Shown: piece by piece, positions 16,457 to 32,214 of the stretch | Layout of the letters: each line of letters starts with the position of its first letter | How positions within the stretch are numbered: position 1 is the first letter of the stretch | DNA from: Acidobacteriota bacterium | GTDB lineage: Bacteria > Acidobacteriota > Thermoanaerobaculia > Gp7-AA8 | Direction of reading: 5' to 3' | DNA: 64,000 nt | Assembly (NCBI GenBank): GCA_019244185.1 | Contig: JAFATB010000013.1 | Location: 130,438 to 194,437, forward strand | Notes under the pieces: model-generated | Seen by the model: only the letters and a program-made list of their open reading frames with translations | Told to the model about the DNA's origin: nothing | Databases searched by the model: none | Program-made: the position numbers and the translations under genes

Positions 16457-16998
16457 AGATCCGCGTCGCCACCGCCTCCGATCTCTCCGCCATCGATCGC
16501 GTGATGCGCGCCTCCATGCAGTCCCTCGGCGCCGCCTTCTACGACGAGCGCCAGCTCGCCAGCGCCGTCGCCTACATCGCGCAGCCCGATCACCACCTCG
16601 TCGACGACGGCACGTTCTACGTCGTGGAAGACGAAGACGGAACGATCGTCGCGTGCGGCGGCTGGAGCGCGCGCAGGAAACTCTTCACCGGTACCGACGC
16701 GCAGGCCGCGACCTCAGGCATGCTCAATCCCGCCACCGATCCCGCGCGCATCCGCGCGATGTTCGTCCACCCCGCCGCCGCCCGCCGCGGCCTCGGCCGC
16801 CTCATCCTCGAGACCGCCGAACGCGCCGCCCACGCCGCCGGCTTCACGCGCTGCGAGCTCATGGCCACGCTGCCCGGCGTCCCGCTGTATCGCGCCTGCG
16901 GCTACGAAGAGCTCGAGCCCACCGTCATTCGCCTGCCGGACGGGGTGGAGCTGGAGACGGTGCGGATGGGGAAGGGCGCGACGTCAGCAGGTACGTGA
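16453..16998 (+). CDS. GNAT-family N-acetyltransferase
   Basis: A 181-residue GNAT acetyltransferase. It has the conserved opening IRVATASDLSAIDRVM and the acetyl-CoA-binding motif A (AMFVHPAAARRGLGRLILE, with the R-x-x-G-x-G/A pattern), then PLYRACGYEE near the end. The start overlaps the stop of the PATAN gene by 4 nt, so it is translationally coupled. The acceptor is unknown. The 3' end overlaps the convergent small membrane protein gene by about 74 nt. Confidence 0.85.
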   Translation: MKIRVATASDLSAIDRVMRASMQSLGAAFYDERQLASAVAYIAQPDHHLVDDGTFYVVEDEDGTIVACGGWSARRKLFTGTDAQAATSGMLNPATDPARIRAMFVHPAAARRGLGRLILETAERAAHAAGFTRCELMATLPGVPLYRACGYEELEPTVIRLPDGVELETVRMGKGATSAGT

Positions 16999-17338
16999 AG
17001 ATCCCGAATCCGACACCGATCGGGACGTAGCCAAAGAGCGCTTCATCGATGCGGCGGAAGCCGATCCCGGCCAGCACGCCGACGCCGCCGAGGAGGAGCA
17101 CCCAGGCGATCGCGCGCAGCGTGTCGCGGCGCCGTGCGATGTCGTTGGCTTCCTGCCACCGCAGCCACGCGAAAACCCGGTCGCGATCGTCCGCGTATTT
17201 GTCCAGCATCAGCCGCGACAACTCGTAGCGGTAAAACGACTCGCGCTCCTTGCGCCGCTGCGACGCCCACCAGATCACGGAGAACGCGAGACACGACGAG
17301 ACGATCGAGGAGATGGGAATCAGAACCTGCCACCGCAT
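16925..17338 (-). CDS. Small membrane protein under an ECF-type promoter
   Basis: A 137-residue protein with three hydrophobic segments: residues about 3-22 (VLIPISSIVSSCLAFSVIWW), 72-92 and 98-116. Between the first and second is a charged helical stretch (QRRKERESFYRYELSRLML, DKYADDRDRVFAWLRWQ). No named family is recognised with certainty. ATG 17338 is chosen because AAAGGAAA stands 8 nt before it and it opens the first membrane helix. The gene is divergent from the ECF sigma gene and is preceded by a promoter (17363-17389, minus) identical in form to that of the sigma gene, so it is likely a target of that sigma factor. Confidence 0.7.
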   Translation of the reverse strand: MRWQVLIPISSIVSSCLAFSVIWWASQRRKERESFYRYELSRLMLDKYADDRDRVFAWLRWQEANDIARRRDTLRAIAWVLLLGGVGVLAGIGFRRIDEALFGYVPIGVGFGIFTYLLTSRPSPSAPSPAPPRPAGE

Positions 17339-17362
17339 GGGCGATTTCCTTTCGAGCGGTGA

Positions 17363-17389
17363 GACGCCGCCGCGCGCGATCGGGTTGCA
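17363..17389 (-). promoter_or_regulatory. ECF-sigma promoter for the small membrane protein
   Basis: On the minus strand TGCAACC (plus 17383-17389) is followed after exactly 16 nt by CGTC (plus 17363-17366). The -10 is 25 nt before the ATG at 17338. Same -35, same -10 and same spacing as the promoters at 17400 and 18290. Confidence 0.75.
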
Positions 17390-17399
17390 CGGGCGGCGA

Positions 17400-17426
17400 T
17401 GCAACCACTTCGCGGCGTGCGGCGTC
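17400..17426 (+). promoter_or_regulatory. ECF-sigma promoter for the sigma factor operon
   Basis: TGCAACC (17400-17406) and CGTC (17423-17426) are separated by 16 nt. The -10 ends 18 nt before the sigma ATG at 17445. This suggests autoregulation by the encoded ECF factor. Confidence 0.75.
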
Positions 17427-17444
17427 CAACCGGAACGCTAAATC

Positions 17445-17969
17445 ATGAACGCCGACGAGCAGGATGTTGCGGCCGTCCTCGCCGGCGACGTGGAGCGCTT
17501 CGAGGGAATCGTCGAACGCTGGCAGCGGCCGCTGGTGAACCTCGCGTACCGCTTCGTGCATGACGAGGCGCGCGCCGAGGATCTGGCGCAGGAGGCGTTT
17601 CTGAAGTGCTTTCGTTCACTCGCGCAGTGGCGGCGCGACGCGGCGTTCTCGACGTGGCTGTTCTCGGTCGCGCTGAGCGTCTACCGCTCGAAGCTGCGGC
17701 GGCTCGAGCCGTTGCGCGTGGCGCTCGCGGAACTGGAGATCGACGATCGCATCGACGAGCGGCTGTACGAACGGCAGCGCGCGGAGCGCGTCCGGCGCGC
17801 GGTGGACGCGCTGCCGCCGCTCTTTCGCGAGCCGCTGATCGTGTTCTATTTTCAGGAGCAGGACCTCGCGTCGACCGCACGCGTGCTCGGTCTGCGCGAG
17901 GGCACGCTCAAGGCGCGGCTGCATCGCGCGCGCGAGGCGCTGCGGGAGCGCCTGCGGGAGGTGTTGTGA
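17445..17969 (+). CDS. ECF RNA polymerase sigma factor
   Basis: A 174-residue sigma-70-family protein with only regions 2 and 4. Region 2 reads ARAEDLAQEAFLKCFRSLAQW with the -10-reading helix RRDAAFSTWLFSVA; region 4 reads LPPLFREPLIVFYFQEQDL and LGLREGTLKARLHRAREAL (helix-turn-helix for the -35). No extra C-terminal domain. The next gene, overlapping by 4 nt, encodes a small membrane protein placed like an anti-sigma factor. Its own promoter and two others nearby share TGCAACC-N16-CGTC, so a local regulon is proposed. The inducing signal is probably at the envelope, since two of the three units read from these promoters encode membrane or exported proteins. Confidence 0.95.
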   Translation: MNADEQDVAAVLAGDVERFEGIVERWQRPLVNLAYRFVHDEARAEDLAQEAFLKCFRSLAQWRRDAAFSTWLFSVALSVYRSKLRRLEPLRVALAELEIDDRIDERLYERQRAERVRRAVDALPPLFREPLIVFYFQEQDLASTARVLGLREGTLKARLHRAREALRERLREVL

Positions 17970-18289
17970 ACGACGAGATCGAACAGCTCATCGAGGACGT
18001 CCTCTCCGCGCCGCGCGCGATCGAGCCGTCGCCGGCGTTTGCGAAACGCGTGATAATCGCGGTGCAGCGCGAAGCAGCGCTGCCGCCGCTCGCATTTCCG
18101 TGGAAGCGCTTCGTCGCCGCGGTCGTGGCGTTCGTGCTCGGCATGGTGCTCGCGCTCGTCGGCGGTGATGCCGCGTCCGCGGCCGTGACGTCGCACCACG
18201 CGTGGCTGGGGCTCTTCGCGGCGGTGTCATGTTGCAGTCTCTTCGCGACGTTCTCCACCGCGATGCCGGCTCGCCGCGGCGCGCGCTGA
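17966..18289 (+). CDS. Putative membrane anti-sigma factor
   Basis: A 107-residue protein starting at GTG that overlaps the sigma stop by 4 nt. The first 45 residues are cytoplasmic and charged (NDEIEQLIEDVLSAPRA), followed by two hydrophobic segments (about 49-70 and 76-96). The position and architecture fit an anti-sigma factor, but the HxxxCxxC zinc motif of the ZAS class is absent and I see no sequence signature of a known class. The role is therefore inferred from context alone. Confidence 0.65.
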   Translation: MNDEIEQLIEDVLSAPRAIEPSPAFAKRVIIAVQREAALPPLAFPWKRFVAAVVAFVLGMVLALVGGDAASAAVTSHHAWLGLFAAVSCCSLFATFSTAMPARRGAR

Positions 18290-18316
18290 TGCAACCGCTT
18301 CGCGCAAGGCGGCGTC
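18290..18316 (+). promoter_or_regulatory. ECF-sigma promoter for the serine hydrolase
   Basis: TGCAACC (18290-18296), 16 nt, CGTC (18313-18316). Flanking bases also match the 17400 promoter (GATGCAACC, CTTCGCG, GGCGTC). The -10 ends 10 nt before the ATG at 18327, which implies an almost leaderless mRNA. Confidence 0.75.
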
Positions 18317-18326
18317 TCACGGCGCG

Positions 18327-19709
18327 ATGAAAACAATGCTCGCGCTCCTGCTGTTCGCTTGTTCACTTCGCGCCGCCGCACAACCATGGCGGCACTCGAC
18401 GAAGGCGGCCGATGCCGGCTACGACGCCGCCGCGCTCGCGGAGACGCGTGCCGTCGCGGACGAGGCGCATTCGGCCGCGGTCTTCGCGGTCGCGGACGGA
18501 CGCGTGATCGCCGCGTGGGGCGGGGTCGACCGCAAGCTCGAACTGCATTCGATGCGCAAAAGCATCTACGCCGCGTTGTGGGGTATCGCGGAAGCGCGCG
18601 GTCTCGTGCGGCTCGACGCGACGCTCGCGGAGCTCGGCGTCGACGATCTGCAGGCGCTGACGGACGAAGAGAAACGCGCACGCCTCATCGACCTGCTGCA
18701 CGCCCGGTCCGGCGTCTATCATCCCGCCGCGTACGCGACCGCCGATCAGGAAGAAGCGCGGCCCGCGCGCGGCAGCCACGCCCGCGACACGTTCTGGTTC
18801 TACAACAACTGGGACTTCAACGTCGCCGGCGCGCTGCTCGAGCGCGTCACCGGCAAGCCGCTCGGCATCGTCATCGACGAATGGCTGGCGAAGCCGCTCG
18901 GCATGCAGGACTACGCGCCGTCCGACGTCTTCGCCGCGCTCGAGCCGCACGTGTCGCGCTGGCCGGCGCTCACGATCCGGATGTCCGCGCGTGACCTCGC
19001 GCGCTTCGGCGAGCTGTGGCTGAACGAAGGGCGCTGGAACGGACGCCAGCTCGTTCCGGCGGCGTACATCGCGCGCGCGTCGGCGCCGGCGTCGAGCACG
19101 GGCGCGCCCGGACAGGGCTACGCAATGATGTGGTGGACTTACGATGCCGGCTCGGTCGATGCGAAGCAGTATCCGAACGCTTCCCGCGTGCGCCTCCTGC
19201 TCGCGCGCGGCCTCGGCGGACACGTGCTCGCCATCGTGCCGGACGCGCACCTCGTCATCGTTCATCGCGCAGACACCGATCACGGTCGTCGCGTCCCCGG
19301 CGCCGCGGTCTGGACGATCATCGACCGCATTCTCGGCGCGCGCCGCGGCGTCCCCATCCGCCGCGCGCGTGCGTCCGCGGTGCGCATCGAACCGTTCGCG
19401 AGCCAGCTCGCGCCGTTCGTCTGGCCGCACGCCGTCGCGATTTCTCCGCGTGCAATGCAGAACGTCGCGGGCGACTACGAGCTGCGCCCCGGCGTTGTCG
19501 CGCACGTCTTCATCGAAGACGGCCGGCTCTTTGCCTCGATGCCGGGACGCGGCGAGGCCGAGCTTTTCGCGACCTCGCCCACGGATTTTTTCGTGCGCGT
19601 CGACGCGGGGACCACCATCCACTTCGATCTCGACGACGCCGGCGTCGCGGCACGCGTGCGCGTCACGATCGGCGGGAAGGAACTCGTGGCGCGCCGTATC
19701 CCTGTGTAA
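18327..19709 (+). CDS. Exported serine hydrolase, class C beta-lactamase fold
   Basis: A 460-residue protein with a signal peptide (MKTMLALLLFACSLRAAA) and the serine-hydrolase motifs of the class C beta-lactamase/DD-peptidase fold: SMRK (nucleophile Ser and Lys) and YNN in FWFYNNWDFN. The third motif is less clear, around ARGLGGHVLAIVP. After the catalytic domain (to about residue 345) there is a C-terminal beta-rich part (MQNVAGDYELRPG, FFVRVDAGTTIHF) typical of esterase EstB-like relatives. It would act outside the cytoplasm; substrates could be peptides, esters or beta-lactams. It is preceded by a promoter matching the ECF sigma factor's own. Confidence 0.88.
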   Translation: MKTMLALLLFACSLRAAAQPWRHSTKAADAGYDAAALAETRAVADEAHSAAVFAVADGRVIAAWGGVDRKLELHSMRKSIYAALWGIAEARGLVRLDATLAELGVDDLQALTDEEKRARLIDLLHARSGVYHPAAYATADQEEARPARGSHARDTFWFYNNWDFNVAGALLERVTGKPLGIVIDEWLAKPLGMQDYAPSDVFAALEPHVSRWPALTIRMSARDLARFGELWLNEGRWNGRQLVPAAYIARASAPASSTGAPGQGYAMMWWTYDAGSVDAKQYPNASRVRLLLARGLGGHVLAIVPDAHLVIVHRADTDHGRRVPGAAVWTIIDRILGARRGVPIRRARASAVRIEPFASQLAPFVWPHAVAISPRAMQNVAGDYELRPGVVAHVFIEDGRLFASMPGRGEAELFATSPTDFFVRVDAGTTIHFDLDDAGVAARVRVTIGGKELVARRIPV

Positions 19710-21148: not shown

Positions 21149-21166
21149 CGCGGGCAAGAAATGATG

Positions 21167-21187
21167 CGCCGTCCGTTGCGGACGGCG
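21167..21187 (+). terminator. Hairpin terminator after the SPOR gene
   Basis: CGCCGTCCG-TTG-CGGACGGCG is a perfect 9-bp stem with a 3-nt loop, 18 nt after the SPOR stop, followed by TTAAACT. It separates the envelope genes from the damaged DUF4157/AraC segment. Confidence 0.6.
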
Positions 21188-21202
21188 TTAAACTGTTCCG
21201 GA

Positions 21203-21485
21203 ATGATGTCCGGCGTGATCCAGGGCTCGTTCCCTCACGGATTGCCCCGTCCGGCGCGGCCGCCGGTTCAGCGCAGCGCTGCGCCGATGCCGCCGCATGC
21301 GATGCCGCTTCCGCCGCAGCTGTCGACGCTGGTCGTGCGCGACGGCGGTCAGCCGCTACCGCCGCAGGTCCGGCAGCGCATGGAAGCGGCGTTCTCCGCG
21401 AGGTTCGACGACGTTCGCGTGCACATCTCGCCGCAGACGCAGGCCCTCGGCGCGGTCGCCCTTACGCACGGCTCGCACATTCACG
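21203..21485 (+). pseudogene. DUF4157 (eCIS core-type) domain, truncated
   Basis: From ATG 21203 or 21206 about 94 residues read as the first half of a DUF4157 domain: a Pro-rich lead, then GQPLPPQVRQRMEAAF, FDDVRVHISPQTQALG and LTHGSHIH. This domain marks toxins and accessory proteins of extracellular contractile injection systems and normally continues into a zinc-protease motif of the form HELTHV. That motif is missing here. The frame stays open to 21898, but after GSHIH it becomes Arg/Ala-rich shadow sequence, and the real downstream coding is AraC-like in another frame. No other eCIS gene (sheath, tube, baseplate) is present in the window. Confidence 0.65.
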
Positions 21486-21489
21486 CACG

Positions 21490-22166
21490 ACGCACGACAG
21501 CACGCGCGGCCACGTGCTCGCCATCAATCCCGGCGACGCGCACGACGGCCGCTCCGGCGCCGCGGGCGGCTTCGCGTATCGCATGCTCTACATCACGCCC
21601 GAACGCATGCGCTCCATCGCCGGCGACTTCGCCACGCGCACGCCGCTCGTGCGCGATCGCACGCTCGCGTGCGCCGTCGACGACGCATGGCGTGCCATGC
21701 ATCACGACCCGCGGACGCTCGCCGCGGACGAGCTTCTCGAGCGCGCGCTCGTGCAGCTCGTGTCGAGCCACGGCGGCCTCGCGCCGTGCGTGTCGTCGCG
21801 TCTCGATCAAGCCGCGCTCACGCGCGTGCGCGAGCACCTCCACGCGCACCTCGGTGATCGCGTGCGTCTCGGCGAGCTCGCCGCGCTCGCGTCGATGAGC
21901 CGCTTCCAGCTGACGCGCCAGTCCAGCGCGCGTACGGCGTGCCGCTGCACGCGTATCACCTGCACGTGCGTCTGCTCGAAGCGAAGCGGCGGCTGCGCGA
22001 CGGCGCGCGCGTCGCGGCCGTCGCGGCGGAGCTCGGCTTCAGCGATCAGAGTCATCTCCATCGCCGTTTCAAAGGAACGTTCGGCGTGACGCCGGGAGAG
22101 TGGCGCCGCGCGACGGCGTCTGCCGGACTCGGCACGACCCTCGCTGGCATTGACGCTCATGGCTGA
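21490..22166 (+). pseudogene. AraC-family regulator, N-terminus missing and frameshifted
   Basis: Homology starts in the middle of an AraC-type cupin sensor domain (RGHVLAINPGDAHDG, GGFAYRMLYITPERM) and continues to two helix-turn-helix units (RLGELAALASMSRFQLTRQ; then AAVAAELGFSDQSHLHRRF, KGTFGVTPGEW). The first 40-50 residues of the cupin, with its metal His residues, are absent, replaced by the DUF4157 fragment. A second lesion is a missing T near 21923 (CAGTCC for an expected CAGTTCC), which moves the natural continuation QRAYGVPLHAYH into another frame. The gene cannot make a full regulator unless both lesions are sequence errors. Its targets are unknown. Confidence 0.75.
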
Positions 22167-27004: not shown

Positions 27005-28152
27005 CGGGTCGCTCCTGCGAGTTGGCGCTCTTCGATCAGCTTGTCGAGCTCGGCGCGCAAGCGGCCGAGAATCTCATCGTACGTATAGTGCCCGAGGGAC
27101 TCCGGTCCGCGCTTGAGGTTCACGTAACTCGGCGCGCACCACATGCCGAGGTCCGCGTCGTCGGTTTCGCCCGGACCATTCACGCGACAGCCCATGACAG
27201 CGATGGTGATGTCGTGTGCCTTCGCATACTCGGTCATCTCCCGCACGTTCTGAGCCAGATCGATGAAGGCCTCGTTCTCGACGCGCGAGCACGACGGGCA
27301 GCTGATGATGTTCAGCCCTTTGTGCTCGAAGCGCGGCACGGAGCGGAAGCGTCCCGCGGCGATGTCGTCGAGGATCGCGCGGCCGACCGTGATCTCTTCG
27401 CCCTTGCGCTCGAACGGCAGCGTGAGCGAGACGCGGATCGTGTCGCCGATGCCGCGCGTGAGGAGCTGTTCAAACGCGATGCGCGTCTTGATGATGCCGT
27501 CCGGCGGCATGCCCGCCTCGGTCACGCCGAGGTGCAGCGGCACGTCGGGACGCGCCTCCGCGAAACGGAGGTTCGAGTCGATGACTTTGTTCGGATCGGA
27601 GTCCTTGATCGAGACGCAGTACTGATCGAAGCCGAGGTCGTCGAGCATCGTGCAATGCTCGATCGCGGACTCGAGCATCGGCGTGATGTTGTCGTCGCGG
27701 TCGTACTTCGAGAGCTTGTCGGGATCGACGGAACCGGCGTTGACGCCGATGCGCATCGCGCAGCCGTACGCGCGCGCGACGTCGACGAGATAGGCGACCT
27801 TTTCGCGCACCGGCTTCTCGCGCTCGAGGTGATAGAGGTGGCCGGGGTTGTAGCGCAGCTTCTGGACGTACGGGGCGACCTTCTCGGCGAGGCGGTAGTT
27901 TTCCTGGAGGTCGATGGAGAGGTTCGCGTTGGGACGCGCGGCGCGGATCTCGGCGAGGGCGACGACGTCTTTCGGGTTGTCGACGGCGATGCGGATGACG
28001 TCGGCTCCGGCGGCCTCGAGCAGCTCGACCTGGCGGATGGTGGCGGCGATGTCCTGCGTGCGCGTGGCGGTCATCGACTGCACGGCGACGGGGTTGCTCC
28101 CGCCGATCTTCACGTTGCCGATGCGGATCTCGCGCGTCTGTCGAGTCGTCAC
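27001..28152 (-). CDS. ispG: 4-hydroxy-3-methylbut-2-enyl diphosphate synthase (flavodoxin/ferredoxin)
   Basis: IspG (GcpE) is the 4Fe-4S enzyme of the MEP isoprenoid pathway. The 383-residue protein has [11 protein letters not shown], the barrel motifs DLQENYRL and LRYNPGHL, and the cluster ligands in SCPSCSR and GCRVNGPGE. The length is that of the normal bacterial form without the plant insert. It shows that the host uses the MEP pathway. Coupled to lspA by a 4-nt overlap. Confidence 0.96.
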
Positions 28153-28217
28153 GCGGCTTCTTAACGCGCGGCCCGGGCAAAGATTCCGTATGATCGCTCC
28201 CGTTGCGAGAGGCGAGC

Positions 28218-31200
28218 GTGCAAAATCGGGCGATTCTGACGGCGCTCCGCGCCGCCGCGATCGTCATCATCGCCACCGGCCTCAATGACGTGATCGCCGG
28301 CGCCGCCGCCGGCTACGAGCCGCTCTTCCTCTTCCTCGCCGCCGTCGCCCTGGTCTCTCTCCTCGACGGCGCGATCCTCGGCATCGCCACCGCCGTCGCC
28401 GTGGCCGCCCTCGACGTCCTGCTGTTCGTCCCCCGCGGCACGCCGCTGGCCCGCGCGCTCGCGACGCCGCTGCTCTCGGCGCTGGCCGTGGCCGCGGTGA
28501 TGACGGTGGTGCGCGCGCTCGTCCGCGCCCGGCGGCGCCAGCGCATGCCGGACATCTTTTCCGAGACGATCCCGCTCATCGAGGCGGAGGAGATGGAGTC
28601 GCCCGAAACGCTCCTCGCCGCCATCGACGCGCTGCGCCTCGAGCTCCGCCGCCGCGCCGAGCAGGAGGAGTCGCTCCGCACGCACATCGAGGCGCTGATG
28701 CAGGCGCGCGCGACCGAGTACGAGCGCGAGCTCGCCGCCGCCCGCACCGCTCGTCCCGCCGACTCGGAAACCGCCGCGCAACTCGCGCGCGCCGAGGAGG
28801 AGCTGTCCGCCGCCCGCACCGCGCTCGAAGCGTCGCGCGCCGATACGCAGCGCGCGATGAACGAGCTGGCGCGAGCCGAGGAAGAACTCGAGACCGCGAC
28901 CGGCGCGCTCGCGCGCGAGCGCGGAAACGCGGTGGCGTTCGCGACGAGCGTCGATACGACCACGCGCGAACGCGACGCAGCGCGCGCGGAGTTCGAGCGC
29001 ATGGCCGGAGAGGTGGTGCGCGAACGCGCGATCGGCACCGCCCTCGCGGCACGCGTCGCGGAGCTCGAACGCGCGCTTGCCGACGCGGCCGATGGCTCCG
29101 CCCGCGAGCGCGAGACCGCGCGCGCGGACGCCGAGCGCATCGCCGACGAGCTGACCCGCGAACGCGCCAGCGCCGCGACGATGGCTACGCGCGTCGCCGC
29201 GATGGAAGGCGCCCTCGCCGCCGCGGAAGACGCCGCGCGCGAACGAGACGAAGCGCAGGCGCGCGCCGCTACCCTCACCACGCGCATCGCGGAGCTCGAA
29301 CGCGGTTTGACAGAAGCGGCGAACGTTTCCCGCGAGCGCGACGCGCTGCAAACACGTCTCGCGGAATCCGAGACGCTCCGCACACAAGCAACAGAAGCGG
29401 CGCGCGCACGCGATGAGGCGGAGGCACGGGCCGCCGCACTGACCGCCCGCGTCGCGGAGCTCGAACGCGCCGCCGCGGATGCCTCCGACGCCGCCTACGA
29501 CCGCAACGCCTTCCGCGCCCGCGCCGAGCAGATCGCGAACGAGCTCACCGCCGCCCAGGTGCGCCTCGCCGCGCTCGAGCCGCGCGCCGCGGAGGCCGAC
29601 GCCTTGCGCGATCAGGTCGCGGAGCTGGCGGAGACGACCCGCGAGCGGGATGAAGTGCGCGCGCGAGCGGAGCGGCTCGCGAGCGAGATGGAGACGTTGC
29701 GCGCGCAGGTGGCCGCATCCGCGGACGTGACGCGCGAGCGCGACGAGCTACGCACGCGAGCGGAGCAACTCGCGAGCGAGCTCGCCGAAGCGCGCGCACG
29801 AGCGAGCGAGGCGGAGACGCTGCACGCGCAAGCCACGGCTGCATCCGCGGACGCAACGCGCGCACGGGATGAAGCCCTCGCGCAAGTCGCGGCATCGGGC
29901 GGGCGGGTGGCGGAGCTGGAGCGCGAGCTCACGAACGCGTCGGACGCCAGGCGCGAGCGGGACGAACTGCGCGCGCGAGCGGAGCAGCTTGCGAGCGAGG
30001 TGGAGACGCTGCATGCGCAAGCCACAGCTGCATCCGCGGACGCAACGAGCGCACGGGATGAAGCGCTCGCGAAGGCCTCGGCATTGGGCCGACGGATGGC
30101 GGAGCTGGAGCGCGAGCTTGCGAACGCGTCGGAAGCAACACGCGAGCGCGACGAACTGCGCGCGAGAGCGGAACAACTCGCGAGCGAGCTTGCGGACGCA
30201 CGCGGCCGAGCGCGCGAAGCGGAGACGCTGCACGTGCAGACGACGACCGCGTCGACGGACGCGACGCGCGCGCGGGATGAAGCGCTTGCACAGGCCGCGA
30301 CATTGGGCGTGCGGGTGGCGGAGCTGGAGCGAGCGCTCGCGAATGCATCCGACGCGACGCGCGAGCGCGAGGAACTGCGCGCGCGTGCCGAGCAACTCGC
30401 GAGCGAGCTTACTGACGCCCGCGCACGAGCGAGCGAGGCGGAGACGCTGCACGCGCAGGCGACGACCGCATCCTCCGACGCCACTCGCGCGCGGGATGAA
30501 GCGCTCGCGCAAGTCGCGGCGTCGAGCGTGCGGGTGGCGGAGCTGGAGCGCGCGCTCGCGAACGTATCTGACGCGACTCGCGAGCGCGACGAGCTGCGCG
30601 CGCGCGCGGACCAACTCGAGAGCGAGCTCGCGGACGCGCGTGCTCATGTCAGCGAAGTGGAGACGCTGCGCGTGCGGATGGCGACGACGTACGCGGACGC
30701 GAGTCGCGCGCGGGATGAAGCGCTCGCCGAAGTCGCGCAGATGGAACAGGCGCTCGCGACGCGCGCGGAGGACGCCGCACGCGAGCTCGCGGACGCGCAG
30801 CGGCGCGGCGAGACGCTCGCGGCGCGCGTGGCGGAGCTCGAGGAGGCGCTCGCCGAGGCGGCGGGAGCACTGCGCGAGCGCGACGACGCGCGGGCGGAGG
30901 TGGAGCGCGTTGCGAAAGACGCCGCGCGGGCGGTGGCGGATCGGGCGGCGGCGGAGGCGGTGCAATCCGCGGAGCGCGACCGGCTGCAGCGTCAGCTCGA
31001 CGAGCAGCAGCGGCAGGCCGGCGAGCGGCAACAGCAAGTCGCCGCGCTGCAACACCAATTCGACGAGTCGCAGCGGCAACTCCGCGACCTCGAACAACAA
31101 CGCGCGGAAGCGCAGCGCGAGCGCGAAGCGGCGCGGGCGGAGGCAAAGCACGCGATGGACGCGGTCGCGCGTCTGCGCGAACGCGCGGATGCGCTGACGG

Positions 31201-31820
31201 CGGACGCGGCGCAGGCCGCCCACGAACGCGAACGCGCCGAGGCGCTCGCGCTGCGCGTCTCCGAGCTCGAAGCGGCGGCGCTCGCGTTCGACGATCGGCT
31301 GCAGACGATCGTCGGGCATCTCGCGTCCGACCACGAGGCCGACCTCGGGCGCGCGCTCGAAGAGAAAGAAGAAGCGCGCGCGGAAGTGCGCAGTCTCACC
31401 ACGCGTCTCGCGGCGCTGCAGAAGCGCTTCGATGAACTGCGCGAGGTGCAGCCGTCCGCGGCGCGGCGGCGGCGCATCCTCGTCGTCCATCCGGACGGCA
31501 ACATTCGCACGACCGCGCGCACGACCATCGAGCGCTACGGCTACGACGTCCTCGTCGCGGCGGACGGCCTCGAGGCGCTGCGCGTCGCCATGGCGGAGCA
31601 GCCGGACATCGTCATCGCGGACCTGGCCATGCCGAAGATGGATGGCCGCGAGCTCTGTCAGTTCCTCAAATCGCAGGAGAAGACGTCCGCGATCCGCGTG
31701 GTGCTGCTCACGCGCGCGACGGAGGCGATCCCTGCGGGCGCGATTCAGCCGGATCAGGTGCTGCAGAAGCCGGTGCCGGCGGAGATGTTGCGCTCGACGC
31801 TGGCGAACCTCCTCGGGTGA
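28218..31820 (+). CDS. Membrane-anchored giant coiled-coil protein with C-terminal receiver-like domain
   Basis: A 1200-residue protein. The N-terminus has about four membrane helices (residues 5-95, [30 protein letters not shown]), like the DUF4118 sensor part of KdpD. Residues about 130-1070 are an almost unbroken Ala/Glu/Arg coiled coil (over 130 nm if extended) with near-identical 73-residue repeats. The end is a receiver fold: [26 protein letters not shown] (phospho-acceptor-like Asp), VVLLTRA and LQKPVP. The usual acidic pair after the first strand is replaced by His-Pro, so it may be a pseudo-receiver. There is no kinase domain. GTG 28218 is chosen behind GAGAGGCGAG; TTG 28203 is possible. 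Myxococcal FrzS and AglZ pair a receiver with a coiled coil in the opposite order, so a polarity or scaffolding role is a guess. Confidence 0.85.
29814..30728 (+). repeat. In-frame 219-bp direct repeats within the coiled coil
   Basis: Units start (at the codons for ETLH/ETLR) at 29814, 30003, 30222, 30441 and, decayed, at 30660. Three spacings are exactly 219 bp and the first is 189 bp, lacking a 30-bp piece. Each unit encodes [12 protein letters not shown], a VAELER core, [13 protein letters not shown] and ASEL. High identity suggests recent duplication or gene conversion and copy-number instability. Confidence 0.85.
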
Positions 31821-32214
31821 GCAGCATCATATGCCGCTCCGGCGCATCGAGCGGCGTGAAGCCGAACTGCGCGTAGAGCGCGTGCGCGTCGCGCGTGACG
31901 AGGTGCCACCGCCGCAACTCCTGCAGCTCGGGATGCGCGCGGATCGCGGCCATCAGCTGCTTCGAGACGCCGCGTCCGCGATGCGACGGCAGCACGAAGA
32001 CGTCCGCGAGATACGCGAACGTGGCGTAGTCGGTGATGACGCGCGCGAAGCCGACCTGCGCCTCGCCGTCGTACGCGCCGAAGCAGTGCGAGTGTGCGAT
32101 CGAGCGCTCGACCCGCTCGCGCGCGATGCCGCGCGCCCAATACGACTCCTCGGATAAGTAGCGATGGATCATCGCCACGTCGAGCCGCGTGCGGTCGTCA
32201 TCGATGGATATCAA
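31708..32214 (-). CDS. GNAT-family N-acetyltransferase
   Basis: A 168-residue acetyltransferase with the opening YLSEESYWARGI, VGFARVITDYATFAYLADVFV and the acetyl-CoA loop LPSHRGRGVSKQLM, then ALYAQFGFTPL, the usual end of this subgroup. TTG 32214 is chosen because it forms a TTGA overlap with the stop of the MocR gene and starts ISIDDDRTR; the next ATG would cut into the domain. The last 25 residues are Pro/Ser/Ala-rich and lie antisense to the end of the coiled-coil gene (113-nt overlap), so the natural end may be degenerate. Acceptor unknown. Confidence 0.75.
   Translation of the reverse strand: MISIDDDRTRLDVAMIHRYLSEESYWARGIARERVERSIAHSHCFGAYDGEAQVGFARVITDYATFAYLADVFVLPSHRGRGVSKQLMAAIRAHPELQELRRWHLVTRDAHALYAQFGFTPLDAPERHMMLLTRGGSPASSATSPPAPASAAPDPAESRPQGSPPSRA

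Follow-up and report, generated by a model that had tools for sequence, protein, structure and literature searches.

Can one sigma factor of the extracytoplasmic function (ECF) type control its own operon, a neighbouring membrane-protein gene and a serine hydrolase gene through copies of a single promoter? This question is raised by a 64-kb stretch of DNA from an Acidobacteriota bacterium (G000:C13:130438-194437, hereafter the window), which belongs to a genome of 5.3 Mb in 26 contigs. The locus encodes an ECF sigma factor, a short membrane protein that is its candidate anti-sigma factor, a three-helix membrane protein related to the DUF6249 family and a serine hydrolase of the beta-lactamase family. 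The arrangement probably constitutes a self-amplifying switch in which the sigma factor, held by the anti-sigma candidate, would once free activate its own operon, the DUF6249-like gene and the hydrolase gene.

A promoter repeated three times at one locus

The motif TGCAACC-N16-CGTC has exactly three exact matches in the window, all inside 954 bases, ahead of the sigma operon, the membrane-protein gene and the hydrolase gene. In 100 shuffles of the window its mean count was 0.04 and none reached three. A preliminary description of the locus had reported three copies within 1 kb, with identical spacing and no exact fourth copy visible by eye. The clustering is borne out, the N16 spacing holds at all three sites and the window has no fourth copy; the whole genome holds seven, against one for a reversed-pattern control. 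An AC dinucleotide downstream of the -10 box is present at three of the three window sites. The sigma factor itself has Pfam matches to regions 2 and 4 and none to region 3, which is the domain composition of ECF sigmas, and its nearest solved chains are ECF sigmas. Its own operon is preceded by a promoter of the AAC/CGT type, whose activity is predicted from sequence.

Conservation of the three-gene module

The trio formed by the three-helix membrane protein, the sigma factor and the short zinc-less membrane protein is found in at least 20 other genomes of the phylum. A sigma search at an expectation value (E) <=1e-28 gave matches in at least 20 of 396 phylum genomes and at least 8 of 148 class genomes, the window's own being counted in both; both counts are lower bounds, as scoring was limited to each genome's best candidates (no more than 8 or 23). 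The trio was found beside 15 of the 19 other phylum matches and beside all five additional class matches. Among the 17 relatives of the same genus or family, for which all candidates were scored, the best sigma match reached only 6.2e-24, so that these close relatives have no orthologue. In a phylogenetic tree, a branch with support of 99/98, on a bootstrap that had not settled, separates the 21 trio sigmas from 31 other ECF sigmas; a 32nd outgroup locus was dropped from the tree. Three remote loci from the related-locus search were not used.

Four loci with sigmas of 37-42% identity (L074-L077) were set aside from the modules: no DUF6249-like neighbour was seen, three have neighbours of the Hx3Cx2C type, and their sigmas fall outside the module group in the tree. 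The exact motif occurs in none of them, and L074 has a one-mismatch site with N15 spacing.

Gene order varies among the 20 other modules, the membrane-protein gene being divergent in 12 and heading an operon with the sigma gene in eight. Two long co-directional open reading frames (ORFs) follow the anti-sigma gene in three modules of one genus (L066, L067 and L068); by eye they resemble exported amidohydrolases and may be operon outputs.

Promoters follow gene order and vary in pairs

With start codons picked by us, the 20 other modules contain 32 expected promoter positions, and a site within one mismatch is present at 25 of these, compared with 0.32% of 23,579 length-matched regions drawn at random from those loci. 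Of the 20 modules, 17 have one or more of these sites. Internal sigma starts within operons have no site at N16 spacing (0 of 8); near the sigma start of L061 there is a one-mismatch site, but its spacing is N15. Promoter placement tracks gene order: sites stand on both sides when the genes are divergent and at the operon head when they are co-directional. Because the promoter recurs beside the trio in this way, expression of the sigma operon, of the membrane partner and, in this genome, of the hydrolase is likely to be turned on by the sigma factor itself.

Alignment of the first 15 modules revealed that most sites have an AC separated from the -10 box by two bases. The resulting extended motif, GCAACC-N17-GTC-NN-AC, was defined after these modules had been viewed and is strictly matched in 10 of the 15. 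Class genomes fetched after the motif had been fixed match it in five of five cases and at seven of seven expected positions. Around other ECF sigmas, TGCAAC-N17-CGTC was found at none of 28 loci; the 29 loci without it comprise these and one module, L009, in which the box is TGTC.

The three modules that have no site within one mismatch at an expected position carry altered boxes. Both promoters of L063 contain GCATCC, and both sides of L072 and L073, which have the most distant trio sigmas, read GGAACC-N16-TGTC. The two promoters of each of these modules have changed alike, and a variant -35 box common to both divergent promoters is the trace expected of a single recognising protein. Inspection of sigma residues by eye showed KT/KS in L072/L073 where most sigmas have KA, and KS in L165, which has a normal box; this inspection, aimed at a code linking sigma residues to the bases of the -35 variants, led to no settled code. 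L072 also has a one-mismatch site, TGCAACC-N16-CGTT, just 3′ of its anti-sigma gene, though its own promoters carry GGAACC.

Action of one sigma factor on its own operon and on the membrane-protein gene is thus strongly supported by these comparisons, and the promoter assignment is firm for a case built on sequence only. The preliminary description had one sigma factor controlling itself, a membrane protein and a hydrolase: its first two parts stand on the 25 of 32 positions, the 17 of 20 modules and the paired variant boxes, and the third target is predicted from the sequence of this genome. One ECF sigma group across a phylum is thereby provided with the sequence of its promoter, a candidate for its inhibitor and a membrane partner, and the modules in which both -35 boxes have changed are natural pairs of sigma and promoter in which specificity could be studied.

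The anti-sigma candidate

The co-encoded anti-sigma candidate is a conserved short membrane protein predicted to inhibit the sigma factor. Its profile identified 207 homologues among the candidates scored, and among the 120 homologues listed every name given is 'hypothetical protein'. No Pfam family scored over the cut-off. The early reading of an anti-sigma factor without a zinc motif proved correct, as neither Hx3Cx2C, CxxC nor HxxC occurs in the sequence. Members of its alignment (A2) have 106-141 residues and an invariant FPW ahead of the first membrane helix; the L069 protein was missed by the search pattern, found separately and is absent from this alignment.

As described in the literature, class I anti-sigma domains have four helices and about half contain a zinc motif, class II CnrY has two helices, and domains of <50 residues were set aside as possible class II (PMC7406223). 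The structural model of the candidate (mean predicted local distance difference test score, pLDDT, 82; predicted template modelling score, pTM, 0.39) has helices at residues 2-14, 23-37, 46-66 and 69-99. Two helices precede the membrane, instead of the four of a class I domain, and the Hx3Cx2C of zinc-type class I is absent. In this model the candidate looks like a two-helix, class II-like protein: like CnrY in the CnrH-CnrY pair, it would be membrane-bound, with a zinc-less, two-helix cytoplasmic part of <50 residues. It differs from CnrH-CnrY in the two membrane helices of its model and in the DUF6249-like partner, and no sequence or fold match between the two was found.

The membrane protein and DUF6249

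The divergent gene had been read as encoding a three-helix membrane protein. Its AlphaFold2 model indeed has three long helices (mean pLDDT 89), and the description can be refined to a divergent DUF6249 relative: 20 of the 21 aligned members of its family (A1) match PF19762 at E<=0.1, the best at 4.7e-10, and the window's own member does not. A Foldseek search with this model gave no match at E<=0.001.

Among DUF6249 loci above the cut-off in 60 phylum genomes, 8 of 10 have an ECF sigma within ~1.5 kb. Two of these eight are the present module and six have sigmas 31-38% identical to those of the module (L172-L175, L177 and L179); over all 26 DUF6249 loci, 16 have a sigma match, some of them weak. 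DUF6249 may be tied to several ECF groups, because its genes occur near sigmas of such low identity. A literature search retrieved no paper connecting DUF6249 with sigma factors. The chances are slightly better than even that the DUF6249-like protein is a regulator of the sigma factor rather than an output. A broader and more tentative idea is that DUF6249 represents a general class of small, three-helix ECF membrane co-regulators, forming in this case a two-part membrane sensor with the minimal two-helix anti-sigma, and that modules of this type recruit local outputs, the hydrolase for example, by acquiring a copy of the promoter. A role for DUF6249 is in any case made testable.

The serine hydrolase and the third promoter

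The serine hydrolase named in the preliminary description is recognised as such by its PF00144 match and by the motifs S75-M-R-K78 (SxxK) and Y159-N-N161 (YxN). Its best solved match is to part of a 6-aminohexanoate-dimer hydrolase, and it has an apparent signal peptide, read by eye. The match of Promoter 3 is complete in core, N16 spacing and downstream AC. Its spacer has 11 of 16 bases in common with each of the other two window promoters (chance 0.2% per pair), a likeness that may hint at promoter copying. Because the -10 box ends so close to the ATG, a hydrolase transcript begun at the customary distance from the box would have almost no leader. Homologues at E<=1e-20 occur in 3 of 39 other relatives; the best (54%) belongs to a genome without the module (G018), and the motif is present at none of the three homologue loci. 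The hydrolase is a probable captured output in this genome.

Proposed mechanism and alternative explanations

In the mechanism that we propose, the short anti-sigma candidate, the product of the adjoining gene, would keep the sigma factor at the membrane until a signal frees it. The free sigma factor would then read the three copies of TGCAACC-N16-CGTC and activate its own operon, the DUF6249-like gene and the hydrolase gene. By analogy with CnrY and CnrH, the small protein would inhibit the sigma factor through its two short helices; by analogy with YhdK and YhdL, the DUF6249-like protein would be a second membrane regulator working with the inhibitor. With sigma factor, inhibitor and membrane partner all under one kind of promoter, the system would turn on fast and turn off automatically at the signal's end. 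The hydrolase would be an output peculiar to this genome, produced as long as the sigma factor is free.

Several observations weigh against parts of this mechanism. The profile of the anti-sigma candidate matches neither CnrY nor any other solved anti-sigma factor in a comparison with solved structures, class II being very divergent, and a Foldseek search with its model gave no match at E<=0.001. The A-rich stretch that lies directly 5′ of the -35 box in most relatives is not found at the three window promoters. The held-out genomes are not all independent, because L162 and L164 share a family with L061. The hydrolase link is known from this genome only, because other modules have no strict third site beside them (15 genomes by genome-wide listing, five by 3.5 kb loci) and the homologue loci lack the motif; a module genome (G022) has a 39% hydrolase homologue on a different contig from the module, without the motif. 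Motif counts outside the module are close to those of controls: 156 one-mismatch sites in this genome versus 148 in the control; 46 exact sites versus 49 for the reversed control in 15 module genomes, 5 of the 46 lying in modules; and 54 extended-motif sites versus 26 in 16 genomes (~76 Mb), of which 18 are module sites and 36 are left.

Since the one-mismatch count is at control level, TGCAACC-N16-CGTC looks, as far as sequence at this level can tell, to mark a local set of genes, and a wider regulon is not supported. The preliminary description had proposed a genome-wide scan, with a chance-level count to be taken as refutation; outside the module the count was indeed close to the control level, a result in keeping with a local regulon and without bearing on the sites in the module. 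Among the four exact copies outside the window, those on C6 and C12 lie within predicted genes, those on C4 and C26 lie in no ORF kept by the filter and are not followed at short distance by any predicted gene start. Of the four, the copy on C12 alone carries the AC after its -10 box. Of 18 non-module extended-motif sites checked, 14 lie within predicted genes and the remaining four are L143, L155, L159 and L161; the gene caller is crude, missing short genes and placing some module promoters inside over-extended ORFs. L159 (G075:C46:8377-8406, minus strand) is located 38 bases 5′ of a 227-residue ORF with membrane-like stretches, in a module genome and away from its module, and could be a further target.

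It could be argued that the sigma factor has just two targets, the operon that encodes it and the gene for the DUF6249-like protein, the third site being a chance or vestigial sequence and the hydrolase being expressed by read-through or from another promoter. This would agree with the confinement of the strict third site to this one module and with the homologues in 3 of 39 relatives that are unlinked to the module. It is nevertheless unlikely, given that the third site combines the full core and the N16 spacing with a downstream AC that was derived from other genomes. By our own arithmetic, a chance site <=60 bases from a given gene start has a probability of ~1 in 100,000, since the control for the extended motif gives 26 matches in the 16 genomes. 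Reading of the boxes by another sigma factor, or their use as an operator by a separate regulator, is very improbable. The genome has 17 sigma matches at E<=1e-10 and the divergent -35 boxes of the window form an inverted repeat, both of which would suit such an explanation; yet the boxes travel with this sigma and are absent from the 28 other ECF loci. The gap between divergent -35 boxes ranges from 10 to 121 bases across modules, so that they do not form one fixed operator, and a dyad operator is ruled out by this variation together with the single copies that serve operons and the hydrolase.

The role of the DUF6249-like protein is more evenly balanced. That it is a regulated output, for example a membrane-protecting protein with no part in restraining the sigma factor, has a little less than an even chance: like the targets, its gene has its own sigma-type promoter, in the window and in the 12 divergent modules. 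None of the 20 other modules found has lost the gene from its place beside the sigma gene, however, and most DUF6249 loci above the cut-off include a nearby ECF sigma, as might be expected of a regulator; neither point is decisive. A sigma factor that amplifies its own operon together with a DUF6249-like membrane protein and, here, a hydrolase remains the preferred explanation.

Relation to known systems

The principle of an autoregulated ECF sigma with a membrane anti-sigma is ordinary; the form that it takes here, a conserved set of three genes, is distinct and brings in a membrane family that has not been studied. The best working parallel is SigM of Bacillus subtilis, whose autoregulated operon encodes two membrane proteins that jointly restrain the sigma factor, YhdL binding it and YhdK being needed for full inhibition (PMC6827917). 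The present system would likewise have an autoregulated ECF sigma with two membrane proteins, a comparison of how the systems would work; the second membrane protein is DUF6249-like, and its gene is often divergent with its own promoter. Canonical autoregulated ECF sigmas have AAC/CGT promoters and a co-encoded anti-sigma (PMC8103513). The module agrees with that account in the AAC of its -35 box, the CGT of its -10 box, its co-encoded anti-sigma candidate and its predicted self-activation, and departs from it in a longer conserved -35 element (GCAACC), the AC after the -10 box, the DUF6249 partner and the local third target. SigW controls a hydrolase of beta-lactamase fold, PbpE; the present locus similarly places an ECF sigma ahead of a PF00144-type serine hydrolase, in another phylum and with another hydrolase.

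Features of the locus and other observations in the window

Table 1. Genes and predicted promoters of the locus, numbered from the first base of the window
Feature	Position	Strand	Basis or context
Three-helix membrane protein, 137 amino acids, divergent DUF6249 relative	16925-17338	minus	ORF, aligned family A1, AlphaFold2 model
Promoter 1	17363-17389	minus	TGCAACC-N16-CGTC, then TCAC; -10 box ends 24 bases ahead of membrane-protein ATG
Promoter 2	17400-17426	plus	TGCAACC-N16-CGTC, then CAAC; -10 box ends 18 bases ahead of sigma ATG
ECF sigma factor, 174 amino acids, regions 2 and 4	17445-17969	plus	Pfam PF04542 and PF08281
Anti-sigma candidate, 107 amino acids	17966-18289	plus	GTG start, four-base overlap with sigma stop; model with two membrane helices preceded by two short ones in the cytoplasm
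Promoter 3	18290-18316	plus	TGCAACC-N16-CGTC, then TCAC; directly abuts anti-sigma stop; -10 box ends 10 bases ahead of hydrolase ATG
Serine hydrolase, beta-lactamase (PF00144) family, 460 amino acids	18327-19709	plus	PF00144, E 1e-22

Two further regions of the window were noticed. Positions 21161-22089 contain two overlapping ORFs in different frames, perhaps the result of a frameshift; by eye, the first looks like the start of a DUF4157-type protein and the second like a regulator of the AraC type. Positions 28001-32000 are an outlier in composition, with a guanine-cytosine content of 0.72-0.74 and an adenine-thymine skew of 0.16-0.26.

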